Source: Actinomadura sp. DC4 (GTDB taxonomy: Bacteria > Actinomycetota > Actinomycetes > Streptosporangiales > Streptosporangiaceae). Taken from it: a stretch of 64,000 nt of DNA. Below the pieces are notes generated by a model. It made no database searches and was not told where the DNA came from. It saw only the letters and a list, made by a program, of their open reading frames with translations. The stretch is from assembly GCF_030406325.1 (NCBI RefSeq), contig NZ_JAUEQY010000011.1, positions 234,278 to 298,277 on the forward strand. The letters run 5' to 3'. This document shows positions 47,257-64,000 of this stretch, piece by piece; the first letter of the stretch is position 1, and each line of letters opens with the position of its first letter. Made by a program: the position numbers and the translations under genes.

Positions 47257-47702
47257 GATCACCGCTCCCGGCGCCCTGTGCGGAGTGTCGATCATCGTAC
47301 CGTGATCAACTGGTCGTCTCCAAACATGAAAGCGCGTGACTCGGGTGCGATGCCCACATGAACCAACATCATGCGAAGACGTCGAAATGGGAAAGATAGG
47401 TAATTCTCGCCGATACGGGCGGGGACAGAGGGACGTGAAACTCGGGCAGTGGGTGTGACCCGCCTCGTCAAAGCTTGCATTGACCAGGTGTCGGAAGGGC
47501 GGCAGTCGCCATCTTCCGGCGAACGCGGGTCATCCCGGCAGGTACGGCACCTGGCCCGGTCGCCGTCCTCGGTGGCGACTCGTGCGGAGTCGGCGGCCGA
47601 TCGGCGGACCGCGAGACGCGACGCGTGTGGAGTGCCCGGCGTGACCGAGCGGCCGACCGCAGGCCGGCTCTGAGGACTGAACTTCTGAGAGAGGCGGCCG
47701 TC
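47257..47702. other. non-coding region upstream of the ESX locus
   Basis: This 446-nt divergent gap between the LAL regulator and the first WXG100 gene is the only stretch over 300 nt without a supported gene. Its left third (about 47300-47420) is less GC-rich and should hold the promoters. A short inverted repeat GTCGCC/GGCGAC is present near 47560-47580. No convincing -10/-35 pair and no convincing small gene was found. Confidence 0.5.
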
Positions 47703-48056
47703 ATGGCGAACGATCCGACCGTGACCGCGGGCGGCGTGACCTACCGGGTGACGCCTGAGTACCTGGCGGGCGCGGCGAGCGACACGACGAACACCGCGAC
47801 CGAGATCGCGGACCAGCTGGCCGCGCTCAAGACGTACGTCACCAGCCTCGAGGCGAGCTGGCAGGGCGTGGCGCACAACCGCTTCGTGGCGCTGATGGCC
47901 GAGTACGACATTCTCGCCCGCATGCTGAACGACGCGCTGACGGGCATCGCCGGCGGACTGCACGGAAACTACGTCAACTACAAGCAGTCCGAAGAACAGA
48001 ACCTCAGCAACCTCGCCAAGATCGAGGCGGGCATGCCGAGCGCCAACCTGACCTGA
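47703..48056 (+). CDS. WXG100 family ESX protein
   Basis: A 117-residue helical-hairpin protein. The turn carries SWQGVAHNRF, a canonical W-x-G, between two predicted helices (about 20-55 and 65-100). It has a beta-rich N-terminal lead (GGVTYRVTPEYL), longer than in classic EsxB. The C-terminal helix has YKQSEEQNLSNL, a possible YxxxD/E secretion signal region. The ATG at 47703 follows GAGAGAGG. First gene of the ESX locus, 22 nt before the next WXG-like gene, with which it probably forms a secreted heterodimer. Confidence 0.9.
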   Translation: MANDPTVTAGGVTYRVTPEYLAGAASDTTNTATEIADQLAALKTYVTSLEASWQGVAHNRFVALMAEYDILARMLNDALTGIAGGLHGNYVNYKQSEEQNLSNLAKIEAGMPSANLT

Positions 48057-48078
48057 ACCGCGACGTACGGGAGACACC

Positions 48079-48393
48079 ATGGCTGACATCGACGGCACCC
48101 CGATCTACGTCGGCGAGGGGCTGGGCGCGGCCGGCGGCCGGATCAACGCGCAGGCCGGGGAGATCGCGGGCGAGCTGGAGACGCTGAAGGCCAAGCTCGC
48201 GCCGCTGCAGGAGGCGTGGACGCTGAGCCAGGCGGCCACCTACTACCAGGACATGCAGACCGAGTGGGACGTCGCCGCCGAGGGCCTGTTCGGGCCCGGC
48301 GGTGTGCTCGCCGAGATCGCCCAGGCGATGAACGTCAACTGGGGTAACTACTCCGACGCCGAGTGGTCGAACGTCTCCACCTGGAAGCACTGA
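48079..48393 (+). CDS. WXG100-like ESX partner protein
   Basis: A 104-residue helical protein in the position of the second ESX subunit. The turn reads EAWTLSQAATYYQDMQTEWD: the tryptophan is kept but the W-x-G glycine is replaced. Start MADIDGTPIYVGEGLGAAGG, end VNWGNYSDAEWSNVSTWKH. The ATG at 48079 follows ACGGGAG. Partner of the preceding WXG100 protein and upstream of eccD by 36 nt. The missing glycine is tolerated in several ESX families. Confidence 0.82.
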   Translation: MADIDGTPIYVGEGLGAAGGRINAQAGEIAGELETLKAKLAPLQEAWTLSQAATYYQDMQTEWDVAAEGLFGPGGVLAEIAQAMNVNWGNYSDAEWSNVSTWKH

Positions 48394-48429
48394 GAATGGG
48401 CGTGCGCCCGAGGAAGCGAGGCCCCGCCG

Positions 48430-49770
48430 GTGTCCGATGAGCGGTGCCGGATCACGGTCGTGGGCGAGCGCGGGCGAGTCGATCTCGCCGTGCCCGCACG
48501 GGCCCCGATCGCCGAATACGTCCCCATGCTGGCCGGCATGTGCGGTCAGGCCGACTCCGACGCGATGCCCGCGGCATGGTCGCTGGCGCCCGCCGGCGGG
48601 CGGCCGTTCGAGCCCGAGACCTCACTCGAAGCCGTAGGCGTGCTCGACGGCGACACGCTGTACCTCCGTGACGTTCTCGAAGGTGGGTTCGACGGGCCGG
48701 TCGTCGCCGACGTCGACGAGCGGGTCGCCGAGATCGACGACGACGGAGTCACGTGGAACGCGCGTGCACGCGCGCGTACGACGCTCGGTCTCGGGCTGCT
48801 CATCGTCCTGGTCGGGGCCGTGGCCCTGAGCACCGGCGCGGACGGCGCCGCGGGGCCGGGCCCGCTGCTGTTCGCCACCGGCCTCGTCTTCGCGGTGGTC
48901 GCCTGGGTCGCGGGCGCCCAGAGCTGGCCGGTACCCGCGGTGCTGCGCCTGGCGCTGGCCATCGCGACCTGCCCGATCCTGGGTCTCGCGGCGCTTGCGC
49001 TGCCGCTGTCCGGTGTCACCGCCCAGCTCGTCGCGGTCTCGATCACCGCCTCGATCGGCGCGTTCGCCGCGTACCTCGCCGCCCCGGCCATCGCGACGAT
49101 GGTGCTCCAGATCGCCTGCGGTCTCGCGATGGTGCTCGTCGTGCCGCTCGCCGCGCTGCGGGCCGACCCGGTCGAGGCGTCGGCGGTCGTCGGCGTGGTC
49201 CTCTTTCTGATCCTCACCGTACTGCCGAGGACCGCGGCGCAGGTCGCCGCCCTGCCGCCGGGCCCCGTCGAGGCGGATGACGTCGAGGCGGCGGTGGTGC
49301 GCGTCCGGCGCCTGCTGGGCTTCCTCACGGCCGTGTGCTGCGTCGTACTCGGGGCCTGCCTCGTGGTGCTGAGCACCTCGCGCGACTGGTTCGCGCTCGG
49401 CCTCGCGCTGTGCCTGAGCCTGGCCCTGCTGTGCCGCGCGGGCGCGTGGCGGCCGCGGACCGTCGTCGGAGCGCTCCTGCTGACCGGCGCCGCCGGCCTC
49501 GTGGCACTGGCACTCCGGGCACCCGGGCTGATCGAGGCCGTGGACGTGCCCGGCTGGGCCGGCCCGCTCGCGGTGCTCGTAGCCGGTGCCATCGTGGTCT
49601 GGAGCGGGCTGGTCATGTGTTTCCGCAGCTCTCTGCAGCAGGCCGACTTCGACGAGCGGTGGAGCTGGCCGGGTGGGGTCGCCACCTTCCTGAGCGCGGT
49701 CAGCGTGCCGCTGGCCGCGGGCGTCTTCGGAGTGTTCGGCGACCTGATGCGGGCCGGCGGAAAGCTGTGA
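48430..49770 (+). CDS. eccD: type VII secretion integral membrane protein EccD
   Basis: A 446-residue channel component. Residues ~5-80 are the ubiquitin-like cytoplasmic domain (RITVVGERGRVDLAVPARAP, AEYVPMLAGMC, SLEAVGVLDGDTLYLRD). From ~115 about eleven hydrophobic helices follow (for example TTLGLGLLIVLVGAVALS). EccD dimers form the inner-membrane pore vestibule of ESX machines. The GTG at 48430 starts MSDERCRI. It precedes the AAA gene by only 4 nt, so the two are co-translated. A complete machine also needs EccB and EccE, which are not seen here. Confidence 0.93.
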   Translation: MSDERCRITVVGERGRVDLAVPARAPIAEYVPMLAGMCGQADSDAMPAAWSLAPAGGRPFEPETSLEAVGVLDGDTLYLRDVLEGGFDGPVVADVDERVAEIDDDGVTWNARARARTTLGLGLLIVLVGAVALSTGADGAAGPGPLLFATGLVFAVVAWVAGAQSWPVPAVLRLALAIATCPILGLAALALPLSGVTAQLVAVSITASIGAFAAYLAAPAIATMVLQIACGLAMVLVVPLAALRADPVEASAVVGVVLFLILTVLPRTAAQVAALPPGPVEADDVEAAVVRVRRLLGFLTAVCCVVLGACLVVLSTSRDWFALGLALCLSLALLCRAGAWRPRTVVGALLLTGAAGLVALALRAPGLIEAVDVPGWAGPLAVLVAGAIVVWSGLVMCFRSSLQQADFDERWSWPGGVATFLSAVSVPLAAGVFGVFGDLMRAGGKL

Positions 49771-49774
49771 CGCC

Positions 49775-52468
49775 GTGCTGACCAAGAAGTCCCACCGCGA
49801 GCGCGTCGCGCCCGGGAGCTGGGGCGCGCACGCCACCATCGGCGACGCCGTACGGGCCGCCGGGCCCGGTGCCGTCGTGTCGGTGCAGCCCGGGGTCTAC
49901 CGGGAGTCCCTGGTGATCGACCGGGACGTCACGATCGTGGCGGAGAAGGGCGCGGGCACGGTGCGCGTCGTCCCGGTACGCGGCCCGGCGCTGACCGTGC
50001 ACGGCGGCGAGGCGACCGTACGGGAGCTCACCTTCGAGGCCGCCGAGCCGGCCGAGCCGGCCGTGCTCATCCGCGCGGGAAGCCCGGCGCTGCGGGACTG
50101 TGAGATCACGGACGGCGGCGTCGAGGTCACCGGTGACGCGGTCGCGGTCCTGGCGAACTGCTCGGTCACCGGCGCCCAGCGCGCGGCCTTCCGCCTGACG
50201 GGCACCAGCCGTACGGTGCTGAACGACTGCACGGCACGGTCCGCCGGCGAGGACGGGATCGTCGCGGACGACGAGGCGCGCGCCGAGTGCACCGGGACCG
50301 TCGTCCACGGCGCCGGCGCCCGTGGCGTCCACATCTCCGGCGCGGCGCGCGGGCGGTTCACGCGGTGCGAGATGCGCGACACCCGGGCCGCGGCCGTGCA
50401 CGCCGAGGGCGGGTCCGGACTGGTGCTCACCGAGTGCCGCCTGCACGACGCCGGCGCCCAGGGCGTACGGCTCGGCGGCGGCGCCGGCCGCCGTACGGCC
50501 GAAGACCGCGAACGCCGTCGCGACGCCGCCTCCGCCGAGGAGCCCGAGACATCACGGTCGCACGCGATCCTGCTCGCCCGCTGCGAGATCTTCGACACCG
50601 GCGCGGCCGGCGTCCTCGCGGAGGAGCAGGCGGCCGCCGTCCTGGACGGATGCCACATCCACGACACCGGCCGCGCGGCGATCATCGCCGCCGGGTCGAG
50701 CGCGCTGGAGCTGGAGGGCGTGCGGGCCGTCGACATCGCCGACAGCGGCCTGGCCGTCTCCGGTACGGCCTCGGTGCGCGCGCGTGAGACCACGTTCGCC
50801 CGCGTCGCCGGGAACGGCGTGTACGTGGCGGGCGACGCGGAGATCGCGCTGACCGCCTGCGAGGTGCGGGACACCGTCTACACCGCGGTCCACCTGGCCG
50901 GGGGAGCCCGCCTGACGCTGACCGGCTGCCGCGTACACGACACGCCGGAGCACGGCGTCCGGGTGTGCGACCAGGCGGAGCTGACCGCGCGGGACACCCA
51001 CGTGAACGACACCGCGATGACCGGGGTGTTCGTGGACGGCGGGGACGCGACCCTGCACGGCTGCCGGATCGCCCGCGCGCGGTGCGGGGTGGCGCTGCGC
51101 ACGACGCACCGGCCGCTGCTGGCCGACTGTGAGATCTCCGACGTGAGCGGCGTCGGCCTGGAGGCCGGCCCGGACACCGGTGGTCTCGTCGAGAGCTGCC
51201 GCATCCGGCGTACCGGCTCGACCGGGATCTTCCTCGACACCGGCAGCACCGTACGCGTCGACGAGTGCGAGGTCAGCGAGGTCGAGGGCAGCGCGCTGTC
51301 CGTGGGCGCCGGGGCGCGGCCGCGCGTCCGCGGGCTGAGCGTGGACAAGGCGGGGCGCAACGGAGTGTTCGTCGCCGGCCGGGCGAAAGGCCTGTTCGAG
51401 GACTGCCGGATCTCCGGCTCCGGATTCCCTGGCATCTACGTCGAGGCGGAGGCCGCCCCGGTCCTGCGCCGCTGCGTCGTCTCCGGCACCGACCACGACG
51501 TCGTCGTCTGCGACGGCGCCGAGCCGGTCATCGAGGACTGCCGCTCGGAGGGCGTGCGCGAGAGCGTCCTCCCGGCCGAGGGCAAGGCCGCCGCGGCCTC
51601 CCGCGGCGCCGTACGCGGCCCGCGCGACGACGGCGCCGAGACGGTCGAGGACCGGCTCGCGGAACTGCGTGCCGAGCTCGACCGGCTGGTGGGCCTGGAC
51701 AGCGTCAAACGCGACGTCGTCGGCCTGACGAAGCTGATGCGGATGGTGAAGGCCCGCGAGGAGGCGGGACTCGCGCCCCCGCCGCTGAACCGGCATCTGG
51801 TGTTCGCCGGCAATCCGGGCACCGGCAAGACCACCGTCGCCCGGCTCTACGGCGGCTTCCTGCACACGCTCGGCCTGCTGGAGCGCGGCCACCTCGTCGA
51901 GGCCGACCGGGGTGACCTGGTCGGGGAGTACGTCGGCCACACGGCGCCCAAGACCCAGGCGGTGTTCCGCCGCGCGCTCGGCGGCGTGCTGTTCATCGAC
52001 GAGGCGTACGCCCTGGTGCCGCACGGCCAGAGCAACGACTTCGGCCAGGAGGCCATCTCCACGCTGATGAAGCTGATGGAGGACCACCGCGACGAGGTCG
52101 TGGTGATCGTCGCCGGCTATCCGGTCGAGATGCGGCGTTTCCTGGACTCCAACGCGGGGCTCGCTTCAAGGTTCAGCCGCACGCTGACCTTCGACGACTA
52201 CGCGACCGAGGAGCTCGTGCGGATCGTGCGGCACCTCGGTGACCGGCACCAGTACGAGTGCCCTCCCGAGACCGTCGAGGAGCTGCGCCGGTTCTTCGAC
52301 GAGCTGCCGAAGGGGGAGCGGTTCGGGAACGGCCGCACCGCCCGGCAGGTGTTCCAGCTGATGACCGAACGGCACGCGCAGCGGATCGCCGACCAGCTCG
52401 CGACGGCGGGCCCCGGCGATCTGACCGATCTTCTGCCTGGAGACCTGCCGTCGCCGGAGGCCATATGA
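49775..52468 (+). CDS. EccA-type AAA ATPase with an N-terminal right-handed beta-helix
   Basis: An 897-residue fusion. Residues ~20-610 form a long right-handed parallel beta-helix of about 22-24-residue coils, each with a C-E/D-I or C-R-I turn, such as LRDCEITDGGVEVTGDAVAV and LEDCRISGSGFPGIYVEAEA-like units. Residues ~640-897 are a CbxX/CfqX-type AAA module: Walker A GNPGTGKT (679-686), Walker B GGVLFIDEAYAL (~735-746), arginine region LASRFSRTLTF. Mycobacterial EccA has a TPR-like N-terminus instead. EccA is a cytoplasmic ATPase acting on ESX substrates; the helix probably binds a substrate or partner. The GTG at 49775 is 4 nt after eccD. Confidence 0.9.
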   Translation: MLTKKSHRERVAPGSWGAHATIGDAVRAAGPGAVVSVQPGVYRESLVIDRDVTIVAEKGAGTVRVVPVRGPALTVHGGEATVRELTFEAAEPAEPAVLIRAGSPALRDCEITDGGVEVTGDAVAVLANCSVTGAQRAAFRLTGTSRTVLNDCTARSAGEDGIVADDEARAECTGTVVHGAGARGVHISGAARGRFTRCEMRDTRAAAVHAEGGSGLVLTECRLHDAGAQGVRLGGGAGRRTAEDRERRRDAASAEEPETSRSHAILLARCEIFDTGAAGVLAEEQAAAVLDGCHIHDTGRAAIIAAGSSALELEGVRAVDIADSGLAVSGTASVRARETTFARVAGNGVYVAGDAEIALTACEVRDTVYTAVHLAGGARLTLTGCRVHDTPEHGVRVCDQAELTARDTHVNDTAMTGVFVDGGDATLHGCRIARARCGVALRTTHRPLLADCEISDVSGVGLEAGPDTGGLVESCRIRRTGSTGIFLDTGSTVRVDECEVSEVEGSALSVGAGARPRVRGLSVDKAGRNGVFVAGRAKGLFEDCRISGSGFPGIYVEAEAAPVLRRCVVSGTDHDVVVCDGAEPVIEDCRSEGVRESVLPAEGKAAAASRGAVRGPRDDGAETVEDRLAELRAELDRLVGLDSVKRDVVGLTKLMRMVKAREEAGLAPPPLNRHLVFAGNPGTGKTTVARLYGGFLHTLGLLERGHLVEADRGDLVGEYVGHTAPKTQAVFRRALGGVLFIDEAYALVPHGQSNDFGQEAISTLMKLMEDHRDEVVVIVAGYPVEMRRFLDSNAGLASRFSRTLTFDDYATEELVRIVRHLGDRHQYECPPETVEELRRFFDELPKGERFGNGRTARQVFQLMTERHAQRIADQLATAGPGDLTDLLPGDLPSPEAI

Positions 52469-52469
52469 G

Positions 52470-53096
52470 CTAACCGAGGACGCCCTTGGAAGGCGGCGCG
52501 GGGAAAATAGACTGCCGGTCGGTCTGCGCATATACCTGACCCGAATGGTTCACCAGAGCGATGTACTCACCGACACGCTCAAGGGTGTTACCAATGTTTT
52601 GTAGCGCCTTTTCCTGGGCCGGATTCATCGTCGTCGCGAATTTCTGCGCCGGCTCCGCCCAAACGGTCGGCTGGGGAGTCGAGTCCGCAGGAGGGGTGTA
52701 CACGCCATCAGAGAAGTCGAAGAATCCTTCGTCCGGGTCTTCCAGCGACTTTTGGCCGAAGACCGTCCCTTCCGACGCGAGGACCTTGGACCGGAGGGCC
52801 TCGTACTGGCTCACGAGACCGCGAGCCGTGGTCAACATGCTCTCCACCTGCGTTCCAACGGACTGCAGGTCGATGCTGAACTCCTGCGCGTCGGTCGCCG
52901 GGCTGTTGTTGGCCGCGCCTGAGTCGGGGCCCTCGTCGATGTCGCGAGGATCGTTGTTGAACGACGGATGCTTGGTCCAGGCGACGTTGAGCTCAGGAGA
53001 CTGGGTATTTCCCAGATCGACCTTGTCGTCGTCGTGGCTGTGGTCATTCGGGTCCAGTGGATGCTGGTCGTATTGGGACTTGATCGGGTCGGACAT
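52470..53096 (-). CDS. protein of unknown function inside the ESX locus
   Basis: A 208-residue protein encoded opposite to the ESX genes. The first ~70 residues are acidic and low complexity (HPLDPNDHSHDDDKVDLGN); the rest is helical: QEFSIDLQSVGTQVESMLTT, ARGLVSQYEALRSKVL, then MNPAQEKALQNIGNTLERVG and EYIALVNHSGQVYAQTDRQS. The spacing of the two helical blocks resembles a long WXG/ESX-type four-helix protein without a W-x-G. The ATG at 53096 follows AGGAGAG. It is less GC-rich than all neighbours, and its stop lies 1 nt from that of the AAA gene. Possibly a secreted ESX substrate or a regulator; not recognised. Confidence 0.7.
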   Translation of the reverse strand: MSDPIKSQYDQHPLDPNDHSHDDDKVDLGNTQSPELNVAWTKHPSFNNDPRDIDEGPDSGAANNSPATDAQEFSIDLQSVGTQVESMLTTARGLVSQYEALRSKVLASEGTVFGQKSLEDPDEGFFDFSDGVYTPPADSTPQPTVWAEPAQKFATTMNPAQEKALQNIGNTLERVGEYIALVNHSGQVYAQTDRQSIFPAPPSKGVLG

Positions 53097-53157
53097 TTCT
53101 CTCCTGACCTGTCGCCGGGACTCGATGACAGGGACATCTTCGTTTCTGCGGTCCGTG

Positions 53158-53185
53158 TTGACAATACCTAGGCTGACGGTATCTT
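53158..53185 (+). promoter_or_regulatory. sigma-70 (HrdB-type) promoter of the second ESX operon
   Basis: TTGACA (53158-53163) and TATCTT (53180-53185) with a 16-nt spacer form the best consensus promoter in the window, 56 nt before the GTG at 53241. The gap between the two divergent genes is AT-richer than the surroundings. Confidence 0.65.
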
Positions 53186-53196
53186 TACCTAGCTGA
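53165..53196. promoter_or_regulatory. direct repeat TACCTAG(G)CTGA overlapping the -10
   Basis: TACCTAGGCTGA (53165-53176) and TACCTAGCTGA (53186-53196) are near-identical direct repeats spaced 21 bp apart, about two helical turns, straddling the -10 box. This is a likely binding site for a regulator acting on the promoter and possibly also on the divergent 208-residue gene. Confidence 0.5.
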
Positions 53197-53240
53197 GCTA
53201 CTTCGGCCGGAACTGTTTCGGTGTCGGGTGGAGGAGGTGC

Positions 53241-53606
53241 GTGGTGGAGGACTTCAAGATAGACCTGAACGCTCTGTCGAACGCCATTGACAGCGTCACC
53301 CGCGAGTCCGGCGGCATCTCGAGTTCGCTGGACCAGCTCGATACGAAGATGCGGCACCTGTCCGCCTACTGGCACAGTCCCGCCTACGACAGCTTCGACG
53401 ACGTCCGCAACTGGTTCAGACAGGCGTCGGACGACCTGACGGACATGCTCGACGAGATCATCAACCGACTGCAGAAGGCGTACGACAACTACCACGAGGC
53501 CGAGTCCACGAACTACGCCAACGTGGACCACCACCTGCCCGTCACGGGACAGGTGGTCGAGCGGCCGGTGGCGCCGGCCGGTCAGGGCGGTGCTCAGAAT
53601 GCCTGA
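53241..53606 (+). CDS. WXG100-like ESX protein
   Basis: A 121-residue two-helix protein. The central turn is SAYWHSPAYDSFDDVRNWF: tryptophan present, glycine replaced by serine (W-H-S). The second helix ends in YDNYHEAESTNY, a Y-x-x-x-E type secretion signal region, and a Pro/Gly-rich tail follows. The GTG at 53241 follows GGAGGAGG; the GTG at 53244 is equally possible. Its stop overlaps the ATG of the next gene by 8 nt. First gene of the operon reading into eccC. Confidence 0.88.
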   Translation: MVEDFKIDLNALSNAIDSVTRESGGISSSLDQLDTKMRHLSAYWHSPAYDSFDDVRNWFRQASDDLTDMLDEIINRLQKAYDNYHEAESTNYANVDHHLPVTGQVVERPVAPAGQGGAQNA

Positions 53607-54102
53607 CAACCTGACCGACGACGGCGGCAACCGTACGGAGCCCACCTCCCCGCTCCGCATCGCGCCCTTCGCGGACTACGACGGCCTGCAGACGCTCGCC
53701 ATCTCGCCGTGGGGGCTGCACGACACCGCGAAGACGATCGTGCAGCTCGCACAGGACATCGCCGACTCCCTCGGCCGCATCTCCGACACCTTGGGCTCTC
53801 TGACCTTCGACAGCTGGAAGGGCGAGACGCAGCAAGAGGTGGACGACATGGCGGACCGGTGGCTCGACGTCTCCTACAACCTGTTCGGCAGCGAGGACAC
53901 GCCGAACGACGGCGTGCTGAACGCCGTGGCGGACGGCATCGGCATCGCGGGCGACAACTACAACAAGGCCGAGATCGGCCTGGTCAACATCTGGCACAAG
54001 TTCGCCGCCAACGTGGGCACGGGTGACGGCAGCGACGAGCAGAAGGACAAGCCCGCGGACCAGATGGACACGAACAAGACCGCGATCACGGCCGACTACT
54101 GA
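53599..54102 (+). CDS. WXG100 family ESX protein
   Basis: A 167-residue protein with an intact W-x-G (FDSWKGETQQEVDDMADRWL) in the turn between two long helices, a 40-residue N-terminal lead (SPLRIAPFADYDGLQTLAIS) and an acidic C-terminal tail. The sequence NYNKAEIGL fits the Y-x-x-x-D/E export signal. The ATG at 53599 lies inside the end of the previous gene. Together the two proteins should form the second ESX heterodimer of this locus. Confidence 0.88.
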   Translation: MPDNLTDDGGNRTEPTSPLRIAPFADYDGLQTLAISPWGLHDTAKTIVQLAQDIADSLGRISDTLGSLTFDSWKGETQQEVDDMADRWLDVSYNLFGSEDTPNDGVLNAVADGIGIAGDNYNKAEIGLVNIWHKFAANVGTGDGSDEQKDKPADQMDTNKTAITADY

Positions 54103-54187
54103 CGCGGGACCGGGATCGCGGACGCGGCGGCGGACCCCGTTGTCGGGCCGCCGCCGAGGGACTTCACATCCTTAGGCAGGGAAACCG

Positions 54188-57100
54188 TTGAGCAGGACCG
54201 CTTTTCACCGTCCCGCCCGGATGGCGCCACCACCGGTGCCGGCGGAGAAGATCTCCCTGGCCTCACCGCCGCAGCTGCCGTCCCAGAACGGTCAGTACGG
54301 CATGGCCATGATGGTCCTGCCGCTCCTGACGAGCGTCAGCATGGCGGCGTACCTCATGTCCACCGGCCGGCCGTGGATGTTCGTGCTCGGCGTGGTGTTC
54401 GTGCTGTCGTCGACGGGGTTCACGATCGGCATCCGGGTGCAGATGCGCAACAAGAACCGCCGGCAGCAGGAGAAGCACCGCGAGAGGTACCTCGACTACC
54501 TGGCCGGCATCCGCAAGCAGGCGCGGCAGATCGCCCAGATCCAGCGGTTCGCCGCCGCCTGGGTGCACCCGAGCCCGCAGCGGCTGTGGGCGATCGCGAC
54601 CCGCCGGCGCCGCGTGTGGGAGCGCCGTCCCGCCGACATCGACTTCCTGCGCGTACGGGTCGGCAGTGGCGACGGCCCTCTCGCCAGCAGCCTCACGGTC
54701 TCCCGGCGCACCGACCCGGCGGTGGACTACGACCCGCGCTCCGTGCACGCGTCGGAGGAACTCGTCCGCGTGCACGGCACCGTGGAGGACCAGCCGGCCT
54801 GGGTCGACGTCGGCCGGGCCGGGGTCGTGAGCCTCCTGGGGCCGGACGAGGAGACGCGGGCGGCCGGCACCGCGCTGCTGTGCCAGCTCGCCGTCCTGCA
54901 CGCCCCGGACGACGTACGGGTCGCGGTGGTCACCGGCGGGCACCAGGAGTGGGAGTGGGCCAAGTGGCTGCCCCACACGCACGAACCGGACACGCGCGAA
55001 CGTGGCGTCGAGGTGGTGCCGCTGGTCGCGGCCAAGCTCGACGACCTCTCCGACCATCTGGAGGACGAGCTCGAACGCGCCGTGACGGCCCGTACCGAGC
55101 GCGGCACCCGTCTCGTGGCCACGCTCGCTCAAGAGGCGTCACGGCAGCGGCTCGTGGTGATCCTCGACGGCTACGACCCGGGGGAGAACTGGGCCAGGTC
55201 GGCCCTCGTCCTGCGCCTGCTGTCCGAGGCGGGGCCGGCGCTCGGCATCACGGTGATCTGCCTCGTCACCGAGGAGGCCCACGAGCCGGGACGCGTGGAC
55301 GTACGGGTCCGCGTCGACGCCCGCGGCGGGCTGTCGCTGGAGGGACCCGACGTCTCCCTCCGCAGCGTCGTGGAGAACGCGACCATGGACCGTACGCCGG
55401 CCGCTCTCCAGGAGCGGATCGCGCGTTCGCTCGCGCCGCTGCGCCTGTCGGGCGAGCGCGACCAGGTCCTCGCCGAAGCGGTGTCGCTGCCGGGCATGCT
55501 CGGCATGGCCGACCTGACGACGCTCGACCCGAGCACCCTGTGGCGGGCGCCGGACGACGAGGCCATGCTGCGGGCGCCGGTCGGCGTGGGTGGCGGCGGA
55601 GAGACGCTCGTCCTGGACCTGAAGGAGTCCGCGCAGGGCGGCATCGGCCCGCACGGGCTCATCGTCGGCGCGACCGGCTCCGGCAAGAGCGAGCTGCTGC
55701 GCACCCTGGTCACCGGCCTGGCGCTGACCCACTCGCCGGAGCACCTCGGCTTCGTCCTCGTCGACTTCAAGGGCGGCGCGACCTTCGCGGGCGTGACCCG
55801 CCTGCCGCACGTCGCCGGTCTGATCACCAACCTCGCCGACGACCTGTCCCTGGTCGAGCGCGTACGGGTCGCACTCGTGGGCGAGCAGCAGCGGCGGCAG
55901 CAACTGCTGCGCCAGGCGGGCAACGTCGACTCGATCCGTGAGTACCAGTTGAAGCAGGCGGCCGGCGGCACCGACGTCGACGGCGCGCCGTTGCCGCCGC
56001 TGCCGTACCTCATGATCGTGGTCGACGAGTTCGGCGAGCTGCTGTCCCAGCGTTCGGACTTCATCGACCTGTTCGTGCAGATCGGGCGGGTGGGCCGGTC
56101 CCTGGGCATGCATCTGCTACTGGCCACGCAGCGGCTGGAGGAAGGCCGGCTACGGGGCCTGGAGTCCCACCTGTCCTACCGCATCTGCCTGCGGACCTTC
56201 AGCGCCGCCGAGAGCCGTGCGGTGATCGGCACGCAAGACGCGTACATGCTGCCGGCGATCCCCGGCTCGGCGTACCTCAAGGTCGACGAGTCGGTCTACG
56301 AGCGGTTCCGGGTGGCGCACGTCTCGCGGCTGTACGAACGGGCGTCGGACGAGGACGCCGCGGACGAGCCGATCGCGCCGAGCCCGTTCACGCTCCGCAC
56401 CCGGCCGGAGCCGGTGGACCTCGTACCGGCCGGTCCTCGCAGGTGGGCGCCGGAGACCGACACGACCGAGCTGCAGATCGTCGTCGAACGCCTCGCCCAG
56501 AGCAGCGCGCCGACCCACCAGGTCTGGCTCGCGCCGCTGCCGGGGGGCTTCTCGCTCGACCTGCTGCTGGCGCCCCTGGCGGAGACGGAGGGGCGGGGCC
56601 TGCAGAGCGCGGGCTGGCCCTCGTACGGAGAGCTGAAGTTCCCTGTCGCGGTGGCGGACCTGCCCGCCCGGCAGGAGCAGCGCCCGCTCATCCTGGACCT
56701 TGCCGGAATCCACGGGCACCTGGCCCTGGTCGGCGCCCCGCAGACCGGCAAGAGCATCTTCCTGCGTACGGCCCTGATCAGCGCGATGCTCACCCACACC
56801 CCGGAGGAGCTGCAGTTCTACTGCATCGACCACGGGGGCGGCGCGCTGTACGGCCTGGAGGGCGCCCCGCACGTGGCCGGGGTGGCCGGCCGGCGGGACA
56901 CCGAACGTGTCCAGCGCGTGCTGGCCGAGGTGACCCGCCTGGTGGCGATACGCGAGCGGATGTTCCGTGATCTGGGCATCCAGTCCGCCGCCGACTTCCG
57001 CAGGCTGCGTGAGAGCGGAGAGCTGCCGCCGGGCGTACGCGCCGCCGACGTCGTCCTGGTCGTCGACAACTGGGGCGCGCTGCACGCCGAGATGGAGGAC

Positions 57101-58303
57101 GCCACCGCGATCGCCACCGACATCGCCACCCGCGGTCTCGGCGTCGGCGTGCACCTGATGCTGACGGCCAACCGCTGGGCCGAGGTACGGATGGGGCTGC
57201 GCGACAACATCGGCGGCCGTCTCGAACTCCGGCTGAACGATCCCGCCGAATCGGAGATCAACCGGCAGGAGGCCCGCCGGCTCGGCCGGATACCGGCCGG
57301 TCGCGGCCTGATGTCCCCGGGGCTCGCGTTTCACGTGGCCCTGCCGCGGCTGGACGGCGGCGACGGCCTCGACGACCTCACCGAGGCCCAGAAGAACCTC
57401 GTCACCGCCGTCGCCGAGGCCTGGCACGGGCCGGCGGCCCCGCCGCTGAAGGTGCTGCCGCAGCGGCTCACCGCGTCGGAGCTCGACGCGGTCCTCGCCG
57501 GGGGAGCGGGCACACCGGACCCCTGGGATCGCGACGGCGGCGACCTGTCCGGGACCGAGGTTCCCATCGGCCTGGCCCAGACCGATCTGCGGCCGGTCGG
57601 CCTGGACCTGAACCAGGGGCAGCCGCATTTCCTCGTCTTCGGCGACTCGGGCGCGGGCAAGACCGTCTTCCTGCGCGCCTGGATGCGCGGGCTGGCCCGC
57701 CGCCACTCGCCGTGGGACGTACGCCTGATCGTCATCGACTACCGGCGCAGCCTCCTCGACGTGCTGCCCACGCCGTACATCGGCGCCGAGGCCGGCAACC
57801 CGGAGCTGGCCGCCACCTTCGTCGCCCAGGTCGCCGAGAAACTGAAGGAGAGGATGCCGCCGGCCGGCATCACCTCCAGCCGCCTGCGCGACCGCGACTG
57901 GTGGGAGGGACCGGAGTTCTACGTCGTCATCGACGACTACGACCTGGTGGCGAACGGCCCGGACCGCGGACCGCTCGCGCCCCTCGCCCCGTTCATCACC
58001 CAGGGCGAGGAGCTCGGGTTCCACATCGTGCTGGCACGCCGGGTCGGCGGAGCATCGCGGGCACTGATGGCCGACCCGCTGCTCGGCCGCCTGCGCGAGT
58101 TCGGCGCCGACGGGCTGATCCTGTCCGGCGACCACCGCGAAGGGGTGCTCGTCGGCGACCAGCGCGCGGCGCAGCGCGTCCCGGGCCGCGGCGTGCTCGT
58201 CCGCAGGAGACAGGATCCGGAGCTGATCCACACCGCGCTCGACGAGGAGACGGAGCAGCTGACGTACGAGCCTCGTCCACCCGCGGAACCGGCGCGGCCA
58301 TGA
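54188..58303 (+). CDS. eccC: type VII secretion motor ATPase EccC (EccCa-EccCb in one chain)
   Basis: A 1371-residue FtsK/SpoIIIE-type motor. Two transmembrane helices near residues 38-80 (MAMMVLPLLTSVSMAAYLMS, FVLGVVFVLSSTGFTIGI) are followed by a DUF-type stalk and three P-loop domains: D1 GATGSGKSELL (~494) with Walker B LMIVVDEFGELL, D2 GAPQTGKSIFL (~849) with a degenerate Walker B VVLVVDNWG, and D3 GDSGAGKTVFL (~1152) with YVVIDDYDLV. Intact catalytic residues in D1 and weaker sites in D2/D3 match known EccC. It drives WXG substrates through the ESX pore. The TTG start at 54188 lies 85 nt after the WXG pair; its stop overlaps the giant WXG gene (ATGA). Confidence 0.95.
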   Translation: MSRTAFHRPARMAPPPVPAEKISLASPPQLPSQNGQYGMAMMVLPLLTSVSMAAYLMSTGRPWMFVLGVVFVLSSTGFTIGIRVQMRNKNRRQQEKHRERYLDYLAGIRKQARQIAQIQRFAAAWVHPSPQRLWAIATRRRRVWERRPADIDFLRVRVGSGDGPLASSLTVSRRTDPAVDYDPRSVHASEELVRVHGTVEDQPAWVDVGRAGVVSLLGPDEETRAAGTALLCQLAVLHAPDDVRVAVVTGGHQEWEWAKWLPHTHEPDTRERGVEVVPLVAAKLDDLSDHLEDELERAVTARTERGTRLVATLAQEASRQRLVVILDGYDPGENWARSALVLRLLSEAGPALGITVICLVTEEAHEPGRVDVRVRVDARGGLSLEGPDVSLRSVVENATMDRTPAALQERIARSLAPLRLSGERDQVLAEAVSLPGMLGMADLTTLDPSTLWRAPDDEAMLRAPVGVGGGGETLVLDLKESAQGGIGPHGLIVGATGSGKSELLRTLVTGLALTHSPEHLGFVLVDFKGGATFAGVTRLPHVAGLITNLADDLSLVERVRVALVGEQQRRQQLLRQAGNVDSIREYQLKQAAGGTDVDGAPLPPLPYLMIVVDEFGELLSQRSDFIDLFVQIGRVGRSLGMHLLLATQRLEEGRLRGLESHLSYRICLRTFSAAESRAVIGTQDAYMLPAIPGSAYLKVDESVYERFRVAHVSRLYERASDEDAADEPIAPSPFTLRTRPEPVDLVPAGPRRWAPETDTTELQIVVERLAQSSAPTHQVWLAPLPGGFSLDLLLAPLAETEGRGLQSAGWPSYGELKFPVAVADLPARQEQRPLILDLAGIHGHLALVGAPQTGKSIFLRTALISAMLTHTPEELQFYCIDHGGGALYGLEGAPHVAGVAGRRDTERVQRVLAEVTRLVAIRERMFRDLGIQSAADFRRLRESGELPPGVRAADVVLVVDNWGALHAEMEDATAIATDIATRGLGVGVHLMLTANRWAEVRMGLRDNIGGRLELRLNDPAESEINRQEARRLGRIPAGRGLMSPGLAFHVALPRLDGGDGLDDLTEAQKNLVTAVAEAWHGPAAPPLKVLPQRLTASELDAVLAGGAGTPDPWDRDGGDLSGTEVPIGLAQTDLRPVGLDLNQGQPHFLVFGDSGAGKTVFLRAWMRGLARRHSPWDVRLIVIDYRRSLLDVLPTPYIGAEAGNPELAATFVAQVAEKLKERMPPAGITSSRLRDRDWWEGPEFYVVIDDYDLVANGPDRGPLAPLAPFITQGEELGFHIVLARRVGGASRALMADPLLGRLREFGADGLILSGDHREGVLVGDQRAAQRVPGRGVLVRRRQDPELIHTALDEETEQLTYEPRPPAEPARP

Positions 58304-61300
58304 GCGGTCCCGGCGGTACTCTCACCACCTGGCAGGACTATCTCGGCAACCTGGACATCAACGCCATCTACGACCTGGGCAACCAGTGGATCCGGATGGG
58401 CGACTCGCTCTACTCCGAGCAGGAGACGCTCGACGACAAGGTCGCGAGCCTCGGGTGGAACGGCGAGGCCGGCACCGCCGCGTGGGACACCTGGGCCAAC
58501 AACATCGCCAAGGTGATGTTCAACGCCGCCGACACGGCGTGGAAGGTCGGCGAGGCCATAAACGCCTACGCCGACGGCATCAAGGACCAGGCCCAGAAGA
58601 TGGCCAAGCAGGACAACGCGCAGACCCTCGCGACGATCTTCGGCTTCATCCTGGGCGCCTTCACCGCCATCTTCAGCGAGCTCGCGTCTCTCATCCCCCT
58701 CCTCGCCCGGATCATCGGCAGCCTCGTCAACGTCATGAGCGCCATCGCGACCCGGGTCGGCACGCTGGGCGCGTCGCTCTTCGGGTTCACCGCCGGGGCG
58801 GCCACCGGGGCCGCCGCGTCCCTCGGCTTCGACATGGTGGCCATGGGCCTGGGCGACCTGGCGGCGCACAACCCCTTCCACGTCGACTGGAAGTCCGAGG
58901 CCGGCAACATGGGGCTCGGCGCCGCCCTCGGCGGAATCTTCGGAGCGGTCGGCACGGCCGACGCGGCCAAGCCGCAGCCCGGTCCCGACGCTCCCTTCGC
59001 GACGGGCACTCCCGGCGGTCCCCCCACTCCCAAGGGGGGTTCTCCGCGAGACTCGGCCCTCCCTGGCGCCGCCCCCGGCGCACGGCCGGGCGCGGTCACG
59101 CCGAAGGGCTCGACGTTCGCGCCGACGGGGGAGCCGAACGGCCGCCCGGCGGGAGGCGACCCGGGCAAGCCCGAGGTGGTGGGGGCCGCACCCGTCGTGA
59201 CCGGCGAAGGCCTGCCGCACAGCGGGACGGGGGAGCCCCGTCCGAACTCCGCCCAGGGCGAGCGCCCGAACGGTGTCACCGGCGAGGCGCCCGCGCCCGC
59301 GGCCACACCGAAGCCCGCCCCGGCTCCGCCTGCGGGCGCGCAGGGGGTGGGCAACGGTCCTCGCGGTGACGCGACGAACCCGCGGCCACCGGCAGCCGAA
59401 CCTCGTGCCGACGCGGAGGCGATGGGCGACGGTCCTTCGGCTCGAGCGAACCCGCCCCTGAGCGAGGGTACGGCCGCGGCGCCGGGCGGCGGGCCTCGCG
59501 GCGACGGCGCGAACACCAAGCCGCCTCCTGCCGAGAACGCGAAGCCGAACGCCGCGGTGGGCGCCCCGCCGCCGAACGAGCGGACACCACCGGCGGCCCA
59601 GCCGACGCCGGGGCGCGAGACGCCGGTGCCGGACACGGGTTCGGGGGCCCGGCCGGGCCCGGACACGACCCCGCCGACCTCCTCGGGACCGACCGCCGCC
59701 CGGCCGGAAGGCCGACCGGCCGAGGGCCCGTCGCAACGCGTCGGCGCGCCGGCCGCCGCCGACCCGCGGCCTGTCGCCACGCCGCAGCAGGGGACTCCCG
59801 ACACACCCAGGCCACAGCCGGAGGTACCCAAGCCCGACCCCGGCGGTGCGGTGACACCTGCGCCGGGAACCCCCAATCCTGAGGCGGTACGACCGGCGGC
59901 GCCGAGGCCTGAGCCCGGCGGCGCGGCGGCACCCGCGCCTGACGCCGTGCGGCCGGAGGCGCCCAAGCCCGATCCCGGCGGCGCGGCGGCGCCTACGCCT
60001 GACGCGGTGCGGCCGGGGGCGGCCAGGCCCGATCCTGGCGGGGCCGAACCGCCGAAGGCCGACGCGCCGTTGGCCGGCGCGCCCGCGCCTGACGCGGTAC
60101 GGCCGGGAGCGGCCAGGCCCGAGCCCGGGAGGGCCGAGCCGCCCAAGCCCGAAGCGCCAAGGCCCGAGACGACGGCGCGGCCCGAGGTGTCCAGGTCCGG
60201 GCCCGGCAGAGCCGAGCCGCCCAAGCCCGAGCCGGGAAGGCCGGAGAACGTCAGGGCCGACCCAGGCGACGGGACGGTGGCGCCGGTGGGCGCCGCTCCC
60301 ACCGCGCAGGGTGGCGGTGAGCCTCGCACCCTGGTCCCCAGCGGGGAGGGGCAGTCCTCACCGGTGCCCGGCCCGGAGCCCGGACGTACGAACACCGGCC
60401 CCCAGCCCGGGGCCCAGACGCCAGGCCGGCCGCATCAGGACACGGGAGCCAGGCCCGGTGCGGCCGAGCCCTCGGGCGGCAAGGAGCCCGCCCCGCCGTC
60501 CGGCGCGGCGAAGCCCCCGGCGAACGGCCACCCCGCGACACCCGGCGCCAAGACCGCCGAGCCGTCACCGGCCTCATCGGCGGGCGGGCCACGTCCCGGC
60601 GACGTGAGCAGGAGCCCTGAGACCAAGGCGTACGCGGATGCGGCCGAGGCGCGGTTGAAGGATTCCGGTAGCGCTCCGGCGGATGTTCCTCTCAAGCCCG
60701 CCGCCGGGCCTCCGAAGGCGCGTTCGGGGTCGGAGACGCCGACGACCGGGGTCTCCTCCGCGGAGGCCAAACCGCGTCCCGGTGACGTGAGCAGGACCCT
60801 CGAGACCAAGACGTACGCCGACGCCGCCGAGGCCCGGATGAAGGAATCCGGCAGTACGCCGGAAGGGCCTTCTCCCAAGCCGGCCGCCGAGTCCCCCAAG
60901 GCGCACCCGGAGACCGACCCTCCCGTTTCGCAGGGCAACGGGTCGGAGGAGCCGAGGACCGGGGTCTCCTCCTCCGAGAGCAAGCCGCCTGAGACGAAAC
61001 CGGCTCCAGCCAAGCCGGACGACCCCAAGGCCACCGACGAACCTCCGGCGAACCACCCGGCGGACACCCCGGCGGCGACCGGCCCCGCAGAGCCGCGGAC
61101 CAAGGAGCCCACCGACCCGAAACCGGAGGCCGCCGAGCCGGTACGGCCCCAGCGGACGGTGCCGGGCGACGTGCCGCCCGCGGGAGAGACGCGGCAGGTC
61201 TTCCGTACGGACGAGAGAACCGGTGACTCGGAACTGGTCGAGCTCGCCACGCGAGGCGGCCGGCGGCTGGGCGGACCTCCCGCGGGAGAGCCGCCCCCGA

Positions 61301-64000
61301 GCCTCAGGCCCGCGCCGGACCGGGCGGGCGCCGGCGAGCCGGCAGCCGCCGACCATTACAGCTACCACGAGGTCGACCCGGGCACCGGCGTCAGGACCGA
61401 GACGCATGTCGGTCCCGACGAAGTGGTGGTGAGCGCCAAGCCCGCCGGCGGGGAGGTGCCGACGCAGTCGTCGGCGTTCAAGGGCGGCAAGCGGATCCCG
61501 GTCGGCGAGCCGCAGCGGCGGCTGCCCGTCTACGACCATGGCAAGGGCCGATGGGACGTCGAGACCGTCGGCGTCAGGCCGGACGCGCCGCACGAAGCCC
61601 CCCCGGGCCGCCCGCCCGCGTCATCCGAGGGTAAGCCCGAGTCGTACCAGGTGCTCCGGAAGGATGGCGACGGCAACGTCGACCTGCTGACCTTCGAAGG
61701 CCGCCCGGCGGACGTACCGGGACCGAAGGGGGGCGGGAACGACGGTTACAAGTACCACTCTCTCGACGGGGGCGACCCGCAAGGCTGGCACGACGGGAAT
61801 CCCTTCGGGACTCCGAAGACCGTCGACCGGGTCAGCAGCGCGCCCGGCGGGTCCCGGCTGGACGGCAAGCCGGTCGAGAACACCGAACCGCCCGCGATCC
61901 TCGTACGCGACCAGCACACCGGCCTGTACGAGAAGGTCACGCCGGTCTCGTCCGGCGGCAGGCCCGAGACGGGCGGCAAGCCCGCCCCCGGAGGACGAAG
62001 CTACTTCCAGTTCGGTTCCGACGGCGACCTGCGGCCGGTCGGGGTCCGCAGCGAGAAGATCCAGGTCATCGGGGTGTCCCCCGGCGGCAAGGTCGCGCGT
62101 ACGAACTTCTCTCCTTCGGGCGAAGGCAGCCCGACCCTGGTCATCGGGAGGAACGGAATACTCACCCCGTCCTCACGGCCGAAGATCTCGGCGAGCGACC
62201 TGCGTTATGACAAGGACACCGGCCGGCTCACCTTCGAGGAGCCGGACTCGGCGGGGCCCGGGGGCGGCGGCGGTCCCGGTCATGATCCGGGTACGTCGGG
62301 CGGCGGAGCGGGGGGTACGGAGACCCGCCCCAAGGGTGGCGGCTCTCAGACCCAGACACAGACACAGACCACGACCAGGACGTTCACCGACGACAGCGTG
62401 ACGGACGCCGCCAAGCCCTCGCCCCGGTCGCCGGAAGGCGACGGTCCAGAGCAGCCCGGGAAGAAGGGTCCGCCCGAGGGCGAGGGCGCCGACGACGCGC
62501 CCGCCCAGGCGTCTCCACCCAAGGAGCAGCCGGCCGGCAGCGCCGGCTCGGGGACGTCTCCCGCCGGGAGCACGGGCACCCGTACGCGTGGCGACGGCGG
62601 TTCGAGGACGGTGACCGAGACACCGAGGCCCGTACGGACCGAGCTCTCCGAGGGCGGCACGCGGAACTCCGGCGAAGGTCCACCCACGCCCGGCGAGACG
62701 GCGTCGCCGGCGGCCGGTGCGCGGGGTTCCGGTGAGGCCGTGCCGGCGCCGAAGCAGACGTCGCGCCCGTCGGGCGGCGAACGTCCGTCGGCCGGTTCCC
62801 AAGACGGCGCGGCCCCGCGAGGCGGTCAGAAGAAGCCGGCCGAGCGGGTCGACCCGCTCGGTGAGGCCGACCGCGTCATCGACCAGGCGACCAGACTGGG
62901 CGGCACGCACGAGGTGCCGTCCAACACGAACTACGTCTCCATTCGTAGCCAGATCGCGCGGACGATCCGTACGGACGGCCTGGAGGCCGGGCGAGCCAAG
63001 GCGCACGAACTGTTGCAGCCGCGTCCGCCGCGCCCGGCGCCCAAACCGGCAGCCAAGAACGACAGCTCCAACTCGATCACCCAGGCCGACCAGGTCATCG
63101 ACAAGGCCACCAGGCTGGACGGCACCCATCAGCCGCCGTCGAACACGAACTACATCTCCGTTCGCAATCAGATCGCGCGGACGATCCGTACGGACGGTTT
63201 GGAGGCCGGGCGGGCCAAGGCGCACGAGCTGTTGCAGCCGCGTCCGGCGCATGCGGCGCCCAAGCCGGCCGCCAGGAACGGACGCCCTGACCCGCTCACC
63301 CAGGCGGACCAGGTCATCGACAAGGCGACCGGTCTGGGAGGCACGCGCCGGCCGCCGTCGAACACGGACTACGTCTCGGTCCGTAACGAGATCGCGCGGA
63401 CGATCCGCTCCGATGGTCTGGAGGCCGGGGGGGCGAAGGCGCAGGAGCTGTTGCAGCCGCGTCCGCCGCGCCCGGCGCCCAAGCCCGCCCCGAAGGAAGA
63501 ACATCCTGACCCGATCGCCCAGGCCGACCGGGTCATCGATCAGGCGACGAGGTTGGACGGCACGCATCAGCCGCCGTCGAACACGGACTACGTCTCGGTG
63601 CGCAATGAGATCGCGCGGACGATCCGTACGGACGGTTTGAAGGCGGCGCAGGCGAAGGCGCACGAGCTGTTGCAGCCGCGTCCGTCGCGTCCGGCGCCCA
63701 AGCCCGCCGCCAAGGAAGGCCACTCTGACCCGCTGACTCAGGCGGACCAGGTCATCGACAGGGCGACCGGTCCTGAGGGCACGCGTCGGCCGCCGTCGAA
63801 CACGGACTACGTCTCGGTGCGCAATGAGATCGCGCGGACGATCCGTACGGATGGTCTGAAGGCGGCGCGGGCCAAGGCGCACGAGCTGTTGCAGCCGCGT
63901 CCGTCGCGTCCGGCGCCCAAGCCCGCCGCCAAGGAAGGCCACTCTGACCCGCTGACTCAGGCGGACCAGGTCATCGACAGGGCGACCGGTCCTGAGGGCA
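58300..64000 (+). CDS. giant WXG-type ESX-associated protein with tandem repeats, 3' end outside the window
   Basis: An uninterrupted frame of 1900 codons from the ATG at 58300 to the right edge. Residues 1-125 form a WXG100-like domain (W-N-G at 53-55, WDTWANNIAKVM, DTAWKVGEAINAYADGIKDQ). Residues ~107-185 are hydrophobic and Gly/Ala-rich (TLATIFGFILGAFTAIF, LIPLLARIIGSLVNVM, ASLFGFTAGAATGAAASLGF), as in the pore-like regions of ESX polymorphic toxins. A Pro/Ala/Gly-rich linker runs to ~960, a beta-rich region to ~1330, another linker to ~1515, then 73-residue tandem repeats to the edge. Its start overlaps the eccC stop. Probably a secreted effector or surface protein; any C-terminal toxin or anchor domain would lie beyond the window. 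Confidence 0.85.
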   Translation, partial: MSGPGGTLTTWQDYLGNLDINAIYDLGNQWIRMGDSLYSEQETLDDKVASLGWNGEAGTAAWDTWANNIAKVMFNAADTAWKVGEAINAYADGIKDQAQKMAKQDNAQTLATIFGFILGAFTAIFSELASLIPLLARIIGSLVNVMSAIATRVGTLGASLFGFTAGAATGAAASLGFDMVAMGLGDLAAHNPFHVDWKSEAGNMGLGAALGGIFGAVGTADAAKPQPGPDAPFATGTPGGPPTPKGGSPRDSALPGAAPGARPGAVTPKGSTFAPTGEPNGRPAGGDPGKPEVVGAAPVVTGEGLPHSGTGEPRPNSAQGERPNGVTGEAPAPAATPKPAPAPPAGAQGVGNGPRGDATNPRPPAAEPRADAEAMGDGPSARANPPLSEGTAAAPGGGPRGDGANTKPPPAENAKPNAAVGAPPPNERTPPAAQPTPGRETPVPDTGSGARPGPDTTPPTSSGPTAARPEGRPAEGPSQRVGAPAAADPRPVATPQQGTPDTPRPQPEVPKPDPGGAVTPAPGTPNPEAVRPAAPRPEPGGAAAPAPDAVRPEAPKPDPGGAAAPTPDAVRPGAARPDPGGAEPPKADAPLAGAPAPDAVRPGAARPEPGRAEPPKPEAPRPETTARPEVSRSGPGRAEPPKPEPGRPENVRADPGDGTVAPVGAAPTAQGGGEPRTLVPSGEGQSSPVPGPEPGRTNTGPQPGAQTPGRPHQDTGARPGAAEPSGGKEPAPPSGAAKPPANGHPATPGAKTAEPSPASSAGGPRPGDVSRSPETKAYADAAEARLKDSGSAPADVPLKPAAGPPKARSGSETPTTGVSSAEAKPRPGDVSRTLETKTYADAAEARMKESGSTPEGPSPKPAAESPKAHPETDPPVSQGNGSEEPRTGVSSSESKPPETKPAPAKPDDPKATDEPPANHPADTPAATGPAEPRTKEPTDPKPEAAEPVRPQRTVPGDVPPAGETRQVFRTDERTGDSELVELATRGGRRLGGPPAGEPPPSLRPAPDRAGAGEPAAADHYSYHEVDPGTGVRTETHVGPDEVVVSAKPAGGEVPTQSSAFKGGKRIPVGEPQRRLPVYDHGKGRWDVETVGVRPDAPHEAPPGRPPASSEGKPESYQVLRKDGDGNVDLLTFEGRPADVPGPKGGGNDGYKYHSLDGGDPQGWHDGNPFGTPKTVDRVSSAPGGSRLDGKPVENTEPPAILVRDQHTGLYEKVTPVSSGGRPETGGKPAPGGRSYFQFGSDGDLRPVGVRSEKIQVIGVSPGGKVARTNFSPSGEGSPTLVIGRNGILTPSSRPKISASDLRYDKDTGRLTFEEPDSAGPGGGGGPGHDPGTSGGGAGGTETRPKGGGSQTQTQTQTTTRTFTDDSVTDAAKPSPRSPEGDGPEQPGKKGPPEGEGADDAPAQASPPKEQPAGSAGSGTSPAGSTGTRTRGDGGSRTVTETPRPVRTELSEGGTRNSGEGPPTPGETASPAAGARGSGEAVPAPKQTSRPSGGERPSAGSQDGAAPRGGQKKPAERVDPLGEADRVIDQATRLGGTHEVPSNTNYVSIRSQIARTIRTDGLEAGRAKAHELLQPRPPRPAPKPAAKNDSSNSITQADQVIDKATRLDGTHQPPSNTNYISVRNQIARTIRTDGLEAGRAKAHELLQPRPAHAAPKPAARNGRPDPLTQADQVIDKATGLGGTRRPPSNTDYVSVRNEIARTIRSDGLEAGGAKAQELLQPRPPRPAPKPAPKEEHPDPIAQADRVIDQATRLDGTHQPPSNTDYVSVRNEIARTIRTDGLKAAQAKAHELLQPRPSRPAPKPAAKEGHSDPLTQADQVIDRATGPEGTRRPPSNTDYVSVRNEIARTIRTDGLKAARAKAHELLQPRPSRPAPKPAAKEGHSDPLTQADQVIDRATGPEG
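59881..60120 (+). repeat. 60-bp repeats in the Pro/Ala-rich linker
   Basis: Within the giant protein a 20-residue unit (D/E-A-V-R-P-x-A-x-R/K-P-D/E-P-G-G-A) recurs at 59881, 59941 and 60001, with a fourth start at 60091 after a 30-nt insertion. The units encode a flexible charged Pro-rich linker and look like a recent in-frame expansion. Confidence 0.7.
60592..60986 (+). repeat. two-copy internal duplication in the giant protein
   Basis: RPGDVSRSPETKAYADAAEA at 60592 is repeated as RPGDVSRTLETKTYADAAEA at 60775. Each copy continues with E-A-R-x-K-x-S-G-S and ends with T-G-V-S-S. The second copy is about 30 nt longer. The unit is predicted to contain one helix flanked by linker. Confidence 0.7.
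62851..64000 (+). repeat. tandem 219-bp (73-residue) protein repeats, at least five full copies
   Basis: Units begin at 62851, 63070, 63289, 63508, 63727 and 63946, each exactly 219 bp after the last, and run off the window. The unit reads DPLTQADQVIDKATRLDGTH, then PSNTDYVSVRNEIARTIR, TDGLEAGRAKAHELLQPR and a Pro/Lys/Ala linker. The core looks like two or three helices. Copies from 63508 on are far more alike than the first two, so the array has grown recently by in-frame duplication. Confidence 0.95.

Follow-up and report, generated by a model that had tools for sequence, protein, structure and literature searches.

What is encoded by the very long open reading frame that starts next to an eccC gene and runs off the end of a contig of Actinomadura sp. 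DC4? We analyzed a window of 64,000 nucleotides, bases 234278-298277 of contig C10 (NZ_JAUEQY010000011.1, assembly GCF_030406325.1), together with a second contig of the same genome, C27; the source genome is one of the eight Actinoallomurus genomes that make up our genus set. An earlier note on this DNA had read the frame as a WXG protein with an array of 73-residue repeats, very likely a substrate or component of an ESX (type VII) secretion system and possibly a surface fiber, an adhesin, or the stalk of a polymorphic toxin. Our analysis indicates that the frame is probably the 5' part of a gene for a giant polymorphic protease effector exported by the adjoining ESX system. As a protein it is of a known kind, the giant actinobacterial multi-toxin proteins; what is new is the coupling to eccC, an N-terminal family of its own, and a triplicated module of one active and two dead protease-like domains.

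The giant frame probably continues past a contig break

58300..64000, + strand: giant gene, 5' part, with no stop before the contig end and a probable continuation on C27 bases 2-23824

The ATG at position 58300 starts 1,899 codons without a stop up to position 63998, in keeping with the roughly 1,900 open codons counted earlier, and direct reading confirmed the proposed ATGA coupling, in which the eccC stop codon (58301-58303) overlaps the start of the giant gene. Contig C10 is 298,277 bp long and its final base is also that of the window, so the open edge is an assembly break. Contig C27 begins inside the 73-residue repeat of the window, in the same frame, and stays open for 7,940 codons to a stop; there is thus no stop just past the window, one of the refuting conditions named in the earlier note. 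The last 83 bases of C10 are identical to the first 83 of C27, and the identical stretch also occurs from position 63699 (the end of unit 4 into unit 5), which explains the contig break and leaves the copy number at six or more. If no unit is missing, arithmetic on the two unjoined contigs (5,618 + 23,824 bases) gives a protein of 9,813 residues.

The two contigs might instead not be neighbors, with the frame stopping soon past the edge of the window, and both contig ends do fall in a repeat of unsettled copy number. We consider such an artifact very improbable, since within the source genome the 73-residue unit scored at these two contig ends only, the 83-bp overlap keeps the frame, and two relatives carry the N-terminus and the conserved core (described below) in one open reading frame on one contig. 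The frame of Actinoallomurus iriomotensis (NBRC 103681) has 7,128 codons and that of A. bryophytorum 6,245, each downstream of eccC; their respective identities to the source protein are 53% and 47% in the N-terminus and 51% and 53% in the core, the latter over about 2,340 residues.

Protease-like domains, three with and eight without the full catalytic set

The giant protein contains eleven protease-like domains, all of them beyond the window on the C27 part. A full set of HExxH motif, catalytic Tyr, and, seven residues further on, the Glu that serves as third zinc ligand is found in domains 3, 6, and 9 only, and each of the other eight is without an intact HExxH, without the Tyr, and without the ligand Glu. 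Domains 3 to 11 consist of a three-domain module (active, dead A, dead B) that occurs three times in a row, so that six of the eight dead domains sit at fixed positions of the repeated module. The array is in this respect a natural pseudoenzyme experiment, in which some copies lost zinc motif, Tyr, and Glu together and others kept the full set.

Modeling predicts that the domain folds like the Pro-Pro endopeptidases (PPEPs), with anthrax-lethal-factor-like metallopeptidases as the next most similar group in the fold search. The PPEP relation came from that search; a profile of the eleven domains run against the PDB returned four weak rows (best E value, 0.047) and no protease. The catalytic set of PPEPs, as given in the available text of PMC12828418, is HExxH, Tyr, and a Glu at +7, and the domain here is like PPEP-1, PPEP-2, and PPEP-3 in its predicted fold and, in three copies, in that set. 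Those enzymes are secreted or attached to the wall, with solved chains of about 190 to 215 residues; unlike them, the domain here is the unit of an array and mostly lacks the catalytic set. A further segment, HExxHxxGxxDEY at C27 residue 4803, is separate from the array; it gave a Peptidase_M6 match below threshold and no PDB match.

A search of named genomes with the protease domain found 11 loci, 8 in Streptomyces and 3 in Actinoallomurus, and in an even sample of the class, scored on the best 7 candidates per genome, the profile matched 4 of 296 genomes, the source included. Protease-like domains are carried by 14 of the 42 giant proteins or open reading frames that we scanned, among them P0008, a fragment of the A. 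bryophytorum gene that repeats its two domains, and P0011, which is closely related to the A. iriomotensis gene. The raw scan gave 45 scored matches, 22 with all five catalytic residues, and 5 short fragments were set aside; after three split domains of protein P0003 had been merged by hand, there were 42 domains, 25 of them with all five residues. Of these 14, the source protein has the largest number of copies, 11 with 3 full sets, and P0003 comes next (6, all full). The protein also points to a large reservoir of uncharacterized PPEP-like domains.

A conserved core in common with giant actinobacterial toxins

Along the C27 part, 58-residue units are followed by the protease-like domains, the HExxHxxGxxDEY segment, a conserved core of about 2,100 to 2,300 residues, and a conserved tail. 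The core is common to 30 database proteins at 36 to 58% identity, and its relatives outside the genus are in Streptomyces, Micromonospora, Lentzea, and Streptacidiphilus. A beta-barrel pore with amphipathic membrane hairpins was considered as a possible fold of the core. Thus, the protein has homologues beyond Actinoallomurus through its core, and it would be a multi-enzyme chain of thousands of residues (1,899 + 7,940 codons) if, as we infer, the two parts are a single gene. Core-sharing proteins are named "toxin glutamine deamidase domain," "scabin-related ADP-ribosyltransferase," and "WXG100-like domain-containing"; among the 30, 12 match PF15644, 7 PF22596, 2 PF04488, and 10 PF25547, none of which matched here. 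A "Lonely Cys domain-containing" protein (P0005) instead has the protease-like domain, rather than the core, in common with the source protein.

The available text of Zhang et al. 2012 (PMC3482391) describes gigantic actinobacterial proteins of more than 10,000 residues, the longest being SACTE_5178 (13,652 amino acids), that combine lethal-factor-like metallopeptidases with further toxin domains. The protein here is like them in being actinobacterial, about 10,000 residues or more in length, and composed of several enzyme domains in one chain, anthrax-lethal-factor-like metallopeptidases among them. It has eleven metallopeptidase-like domains, nine of them in the one-active/two-dead module, versus the "two" given in that text, and it is unlike those proteins in its direct overlap with eccC and in an N-terminal family that is so far found in Actinoallomurus only. 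The earlier statement that no named family with this repeat is known stands for the 73-residue unit, which had no match in sequence searches of Pfam, NCBIfam, or PDB, but the whole protein fits the described class of giant actinobacterial proteins with several toxin domains.

Searches of the giant protein with Pfam (all pieces) and NCBIfam (three of four pieces) gave nothing above the cut-off. Weak Pfam matches to RasGAP_C and MgtE_N fell below it and were set aside, and caspase and ART families had no Pfam match at an E value of 0.01. By its pattern, the tail looked like a degenerate OTU or lonely-Cys domain; this reading found no profile support and is not claimed. Titles and abstracts in the open-licence literature yielded nothing on these Actinoallomurus genes.

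The same contig has a second giant frame (C10:93012-149297), about 85 kb before the window, with 18,762 codons, which shares the core and has eight PPEP-like domains, both motifs being present in seven of them; it had no match to the N-terminus studied here and no eccC match within the 60 kb scanned. Other Actinoallomurus genomes have core-matching open frames of 25,518 codons (A. iriomotensis, C14), 21,284 codons (G001, C2), 16,792 codons (G007, C6), and 15,442 codons (A. bryophytorum, C1, near 2.87 Mb). This survey scored the best 4 candidates per genome and did not return the 18,762-codon frame of the source genome, so its counts are lower bounds, and two protein searches, which found 4 and 2 proteins, were limited to candidates with 5-residue words in common and within a range of lengths. 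To our knowledge, these frames of 15,442 to 25,518 codons are among the longest bacterial frames known.

The N-terminal family is linked to a WXG100 pair and to eccC

53241..53603, + strand: WXG100 protein, first of the pair with the giant gene (PF06013, E 2.6e-10), present at 7/7 other loci
53602..54099, + strand: second protein of this pair, WXG100-like (PF06013, E 6.5e-6, slightly under the cut-off), present at 7/7 other loci
54188..58303, + strand: EccC with FtsK/SpoIIIE domains (PF01580, E 1.1e-96, 3 stretches)
58300..58995, + strand: N-terminal WXG-like domain of the giant protein, then a hydrophobic stretch (from alignment; W53 invariant in 7/7)

Among 60 genomes, the N-terminal domain occurs in the source and in five of the seven other genus members, and in none of the 52 genomes outside the genus. 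The residue W53 is kept in all seven aligned N-termini, as W-N-G (GWNG) in the source copy and as W-N-S in one relative. The family model PF25547 (WXG100_2) matches two of these seven, with a best E value of 6.7e-5, and the source copy is not one of them.

Nine loci have this N-terminus. Our comparison covers eight of them, the window included; the remaining one, in G001, is close to a contig edge and was left out. A WXG100 pair was found upstream of the N-terminus at all eight, and eccC is in the gene row at five of the eight, the window included, with EccC relatives 62 to 77% identical at the four others. In the window and at three of the other seven loci, the pair is followed by eccC and then by the giant gene; the order in A. 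bryophytorum is eccC, WXG100 pair, giant gene, with the pair immediately upstream of the giant gene. The ATGA overlap with eccC and the WXG100 pair at all eight loci support, from gene context, the earlier proposal of an ESX substrate. With this gene, giant actinobacterial toxins are connected directly with the gene for an ESX motor. A paralogous frame on C27 (81932-92914; 3,661 codons) belongs to the same N-terminal family and has its own WXG100 pair upstream, with no eccC within 8 kb upstream.

The arrangement resembles the esxF-esxE-cpnT genes of Mycobacterium, in which a WXG100 gene pair likewise lies upstream of a large toxin gene and EsxE-EsxF is required for export of CpnT (available text of PMC7810871). 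Unlike that case, eccC is in the gene row here, between the pair and the giant gene, the effector domains differ, and there was no TNT-like match. CpnT is also about ten times smaller than the giant protein.

The 73-residue array is a poorly conserved part of the protein

58996..61329, + strand: Pro-rich linker, residues 233-1010 (22.9% Pro)
61189..62253, + strand: conserved block, residues about 964-1318 (42-43% identity to A. iriomotensis and two further giant open reading frames)
62254..62850, + strand: second Pro/Gly-rich linker (13.4% Pro over residues 1331-1517)
62851..63945, + strand: five complete 219-bp (73-residue) units, starting at 62851, 63070, 63289, 63508, and 63727
63946..64000, + strand: start of a sixth unit (55 bp), truncated at the contig end

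The long Pro-rich linkers and the at least five repeats of exactly 219 bp were described correctly before. The array has six 73-residue units if the contigs abut, and a larger number if some are absent from the assembly. Pairwise DNA identity among the six complete units at hand (five from C10 and one from C27) is 78 to 90%, with the maximum reached by neighbors 4-5 and 5-6, so that calling the later copies nearly identical was an overstatement, apart from the exact repeat of 83 bp at the edge. The nonsynonymous substitution rate is below the synonymous rate in 15 of 15 unit pairs. The unit profile matches two of the eight genus genomes, the source and A. bryophytorum, which has two diverged copies inside its matching giant gene. 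The repeats belong to the least conserved stretches of the protein and are not its key feature, and we suggest that the array is a lineage-specific spacer between the export head and the effector part. Pfam had no match for 61330-62272, which covers most of the conserved block.

A second unit, of 58 residues, has seven copies at C27 residues 135-703 (L005:404-2110) that are 55 to 71% identical to the first, and related repeats (45-49%) occur in an A. bryophytorum paralogue at 7.04 Mb. By eye, we suspected a relation between the 73- and 58-residue units; an hhalign probability of 0.5 showed no detectable relation.

Alternative readings and proposed mechanism

In one alternative, the protein is a surface fiber or adhesin, in which repeats and Pro-rich linkers make a stalk through the cell wall and the protease-like domains serve mainly as noncatalytic ligands. 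The tandem repeats, the long linkers, and the absence of the catalytic set from 8 of the 11 domains agree with this, as does the next gene downstream (C27:23914-25026): its product has a ricin-type lectin domain (PF14200, E 6.5e-22) and a hydrophobic segment near the N-terminus, and the N-terminal part of this product is found again right behind the giant gene in A. iriomotensis (36 residues) and in A. bryophytorum (two longer matches). Against it, three domains retain all five catalytic residues, as do 25 of the 42 across the scanned set, the core is common to multi-toxin proteins, and no adhesin or wall-anchor family appeared in the Pfam and NCBIfam searches (no signal-peptide tool was run). 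We therefore regard a fiber or adhesin as unlikely, and this suggestion of the earlier note gained no support; its toxin stalk came close, in that the repeats lie in a stalk-like stretch before the protease array and the toxin-shared core. Slightly less probable again is self-processing, by which intact PPEP-like domains would, once exported, cleave the Pro-rich linkers of their own chain and so free its segments as separate effectors. The predicted PPEP fold, the catalytic residues of three domains, and about 35 Pro-Pro dipeptides in residues 233-1899 (summed over segments) would allow it. However, Pro-Pro is depleted in the main linker (23 versus 40.2 ± 4.9 in shuffles), at chance level in the 73-residue array (6 versus 5.3 expected), and near or below chance in all ten segments besides the main linker, so self-cleavage gains no support. 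Ribosome stalling at Pro-Pro may also cause depletion, and the depletion is thus not decisive.

Several observations also weigh against a giant protease effector exported by the adjoining ESX system. The same depletion in the protein's own main linker is one. The frame on C10 likely continues on C27, but the link across the break is inferred. Structural alignment to PPEPs gave identities of just 13 to 16%, so that the proline specificity is tentative, and the fold model was built on a domain of A. purpureus (L036) rather than on the source protein's own copies. The earlier assignment of a WXG100 N-terminus is correct as to the W-x-G motif, but this copy matched no WXG100 Pfam model, and the four small WXG100 proteins of the window gave no match to it when profiles were compared. 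Among the 28 of 42 scanned proteins without protease-like domains are four other open reading frames with this N-terminus, in the frames scanned, so this N-terminus and the protease array do not always go together. The remaining three of the seven other loci have the WXG100 pair directly before the giant gene and no eccC within 1.2 to 8 kb upstream. None of the genome's six EccB copies is in the window, the nearest ending about 147 kb before its start, so the gene cluster alone is not a complete ESX system. Unlike for CpnT, no immunity gene was seen here, where no systematic search was made.

For a giant protease effector, which we still favor, the WXG100 pair and EccC would recognize and export the N-terminus, by analogy with EsxE-EsxF and CpnT, and we predict that the proline-specific proteases act outside the cell, where they would cleave target proteins. 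The dead copies may have kept their fold because they hold substrate or serve as spacers between the active ones, and the 73-residue array could be a spacer whose length drifts through unequal recombination. A type VII system would then have to move a single chain of almost 10,000 residues, which raises the question of how it could do so. A more elaborate and doubtful version is a one-megadalton, single-chain ESX protease assembly line, with three modules each of one working PPEP and two substrate-holding dead copies, an export head handled by its own WXG100 pair and EccC, the core as a membrane-inserting delivery device, and the 73-residue array setting the reach.

Upstream genes of the ESX locus

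47706..48053, + strand: WXG100 protein of the EsxA/EsxB type (PF06013, E 3.6e-15)
48079..48390, + strand: WXG100 protein of the EsxA/EsxB type (PF06013, E 6.6e-8)
48430..49767, + strand: EccD-like membrane protein with YukD domain (PF08817, E 3.9e-21; PF19053 EccD, E 1.9e-12)
49775..52465, + strand: right-handed beta-helix and AAA ATPase (PF13229, E 4.5e-55; PF00004, E 4.2e-17)

Rfam gave no match at gathering score in 44000-64000. The beta-helix/AAA protein, which we take to be EccA-like, was matched in five of the seven relatives' stretches, in one of them (L022) over just 27 residues. Between its gene and the WXG100 pair of the giant gene lies an uncharacterized frame of 208 codons on the - strand (window positions 52470-53096).
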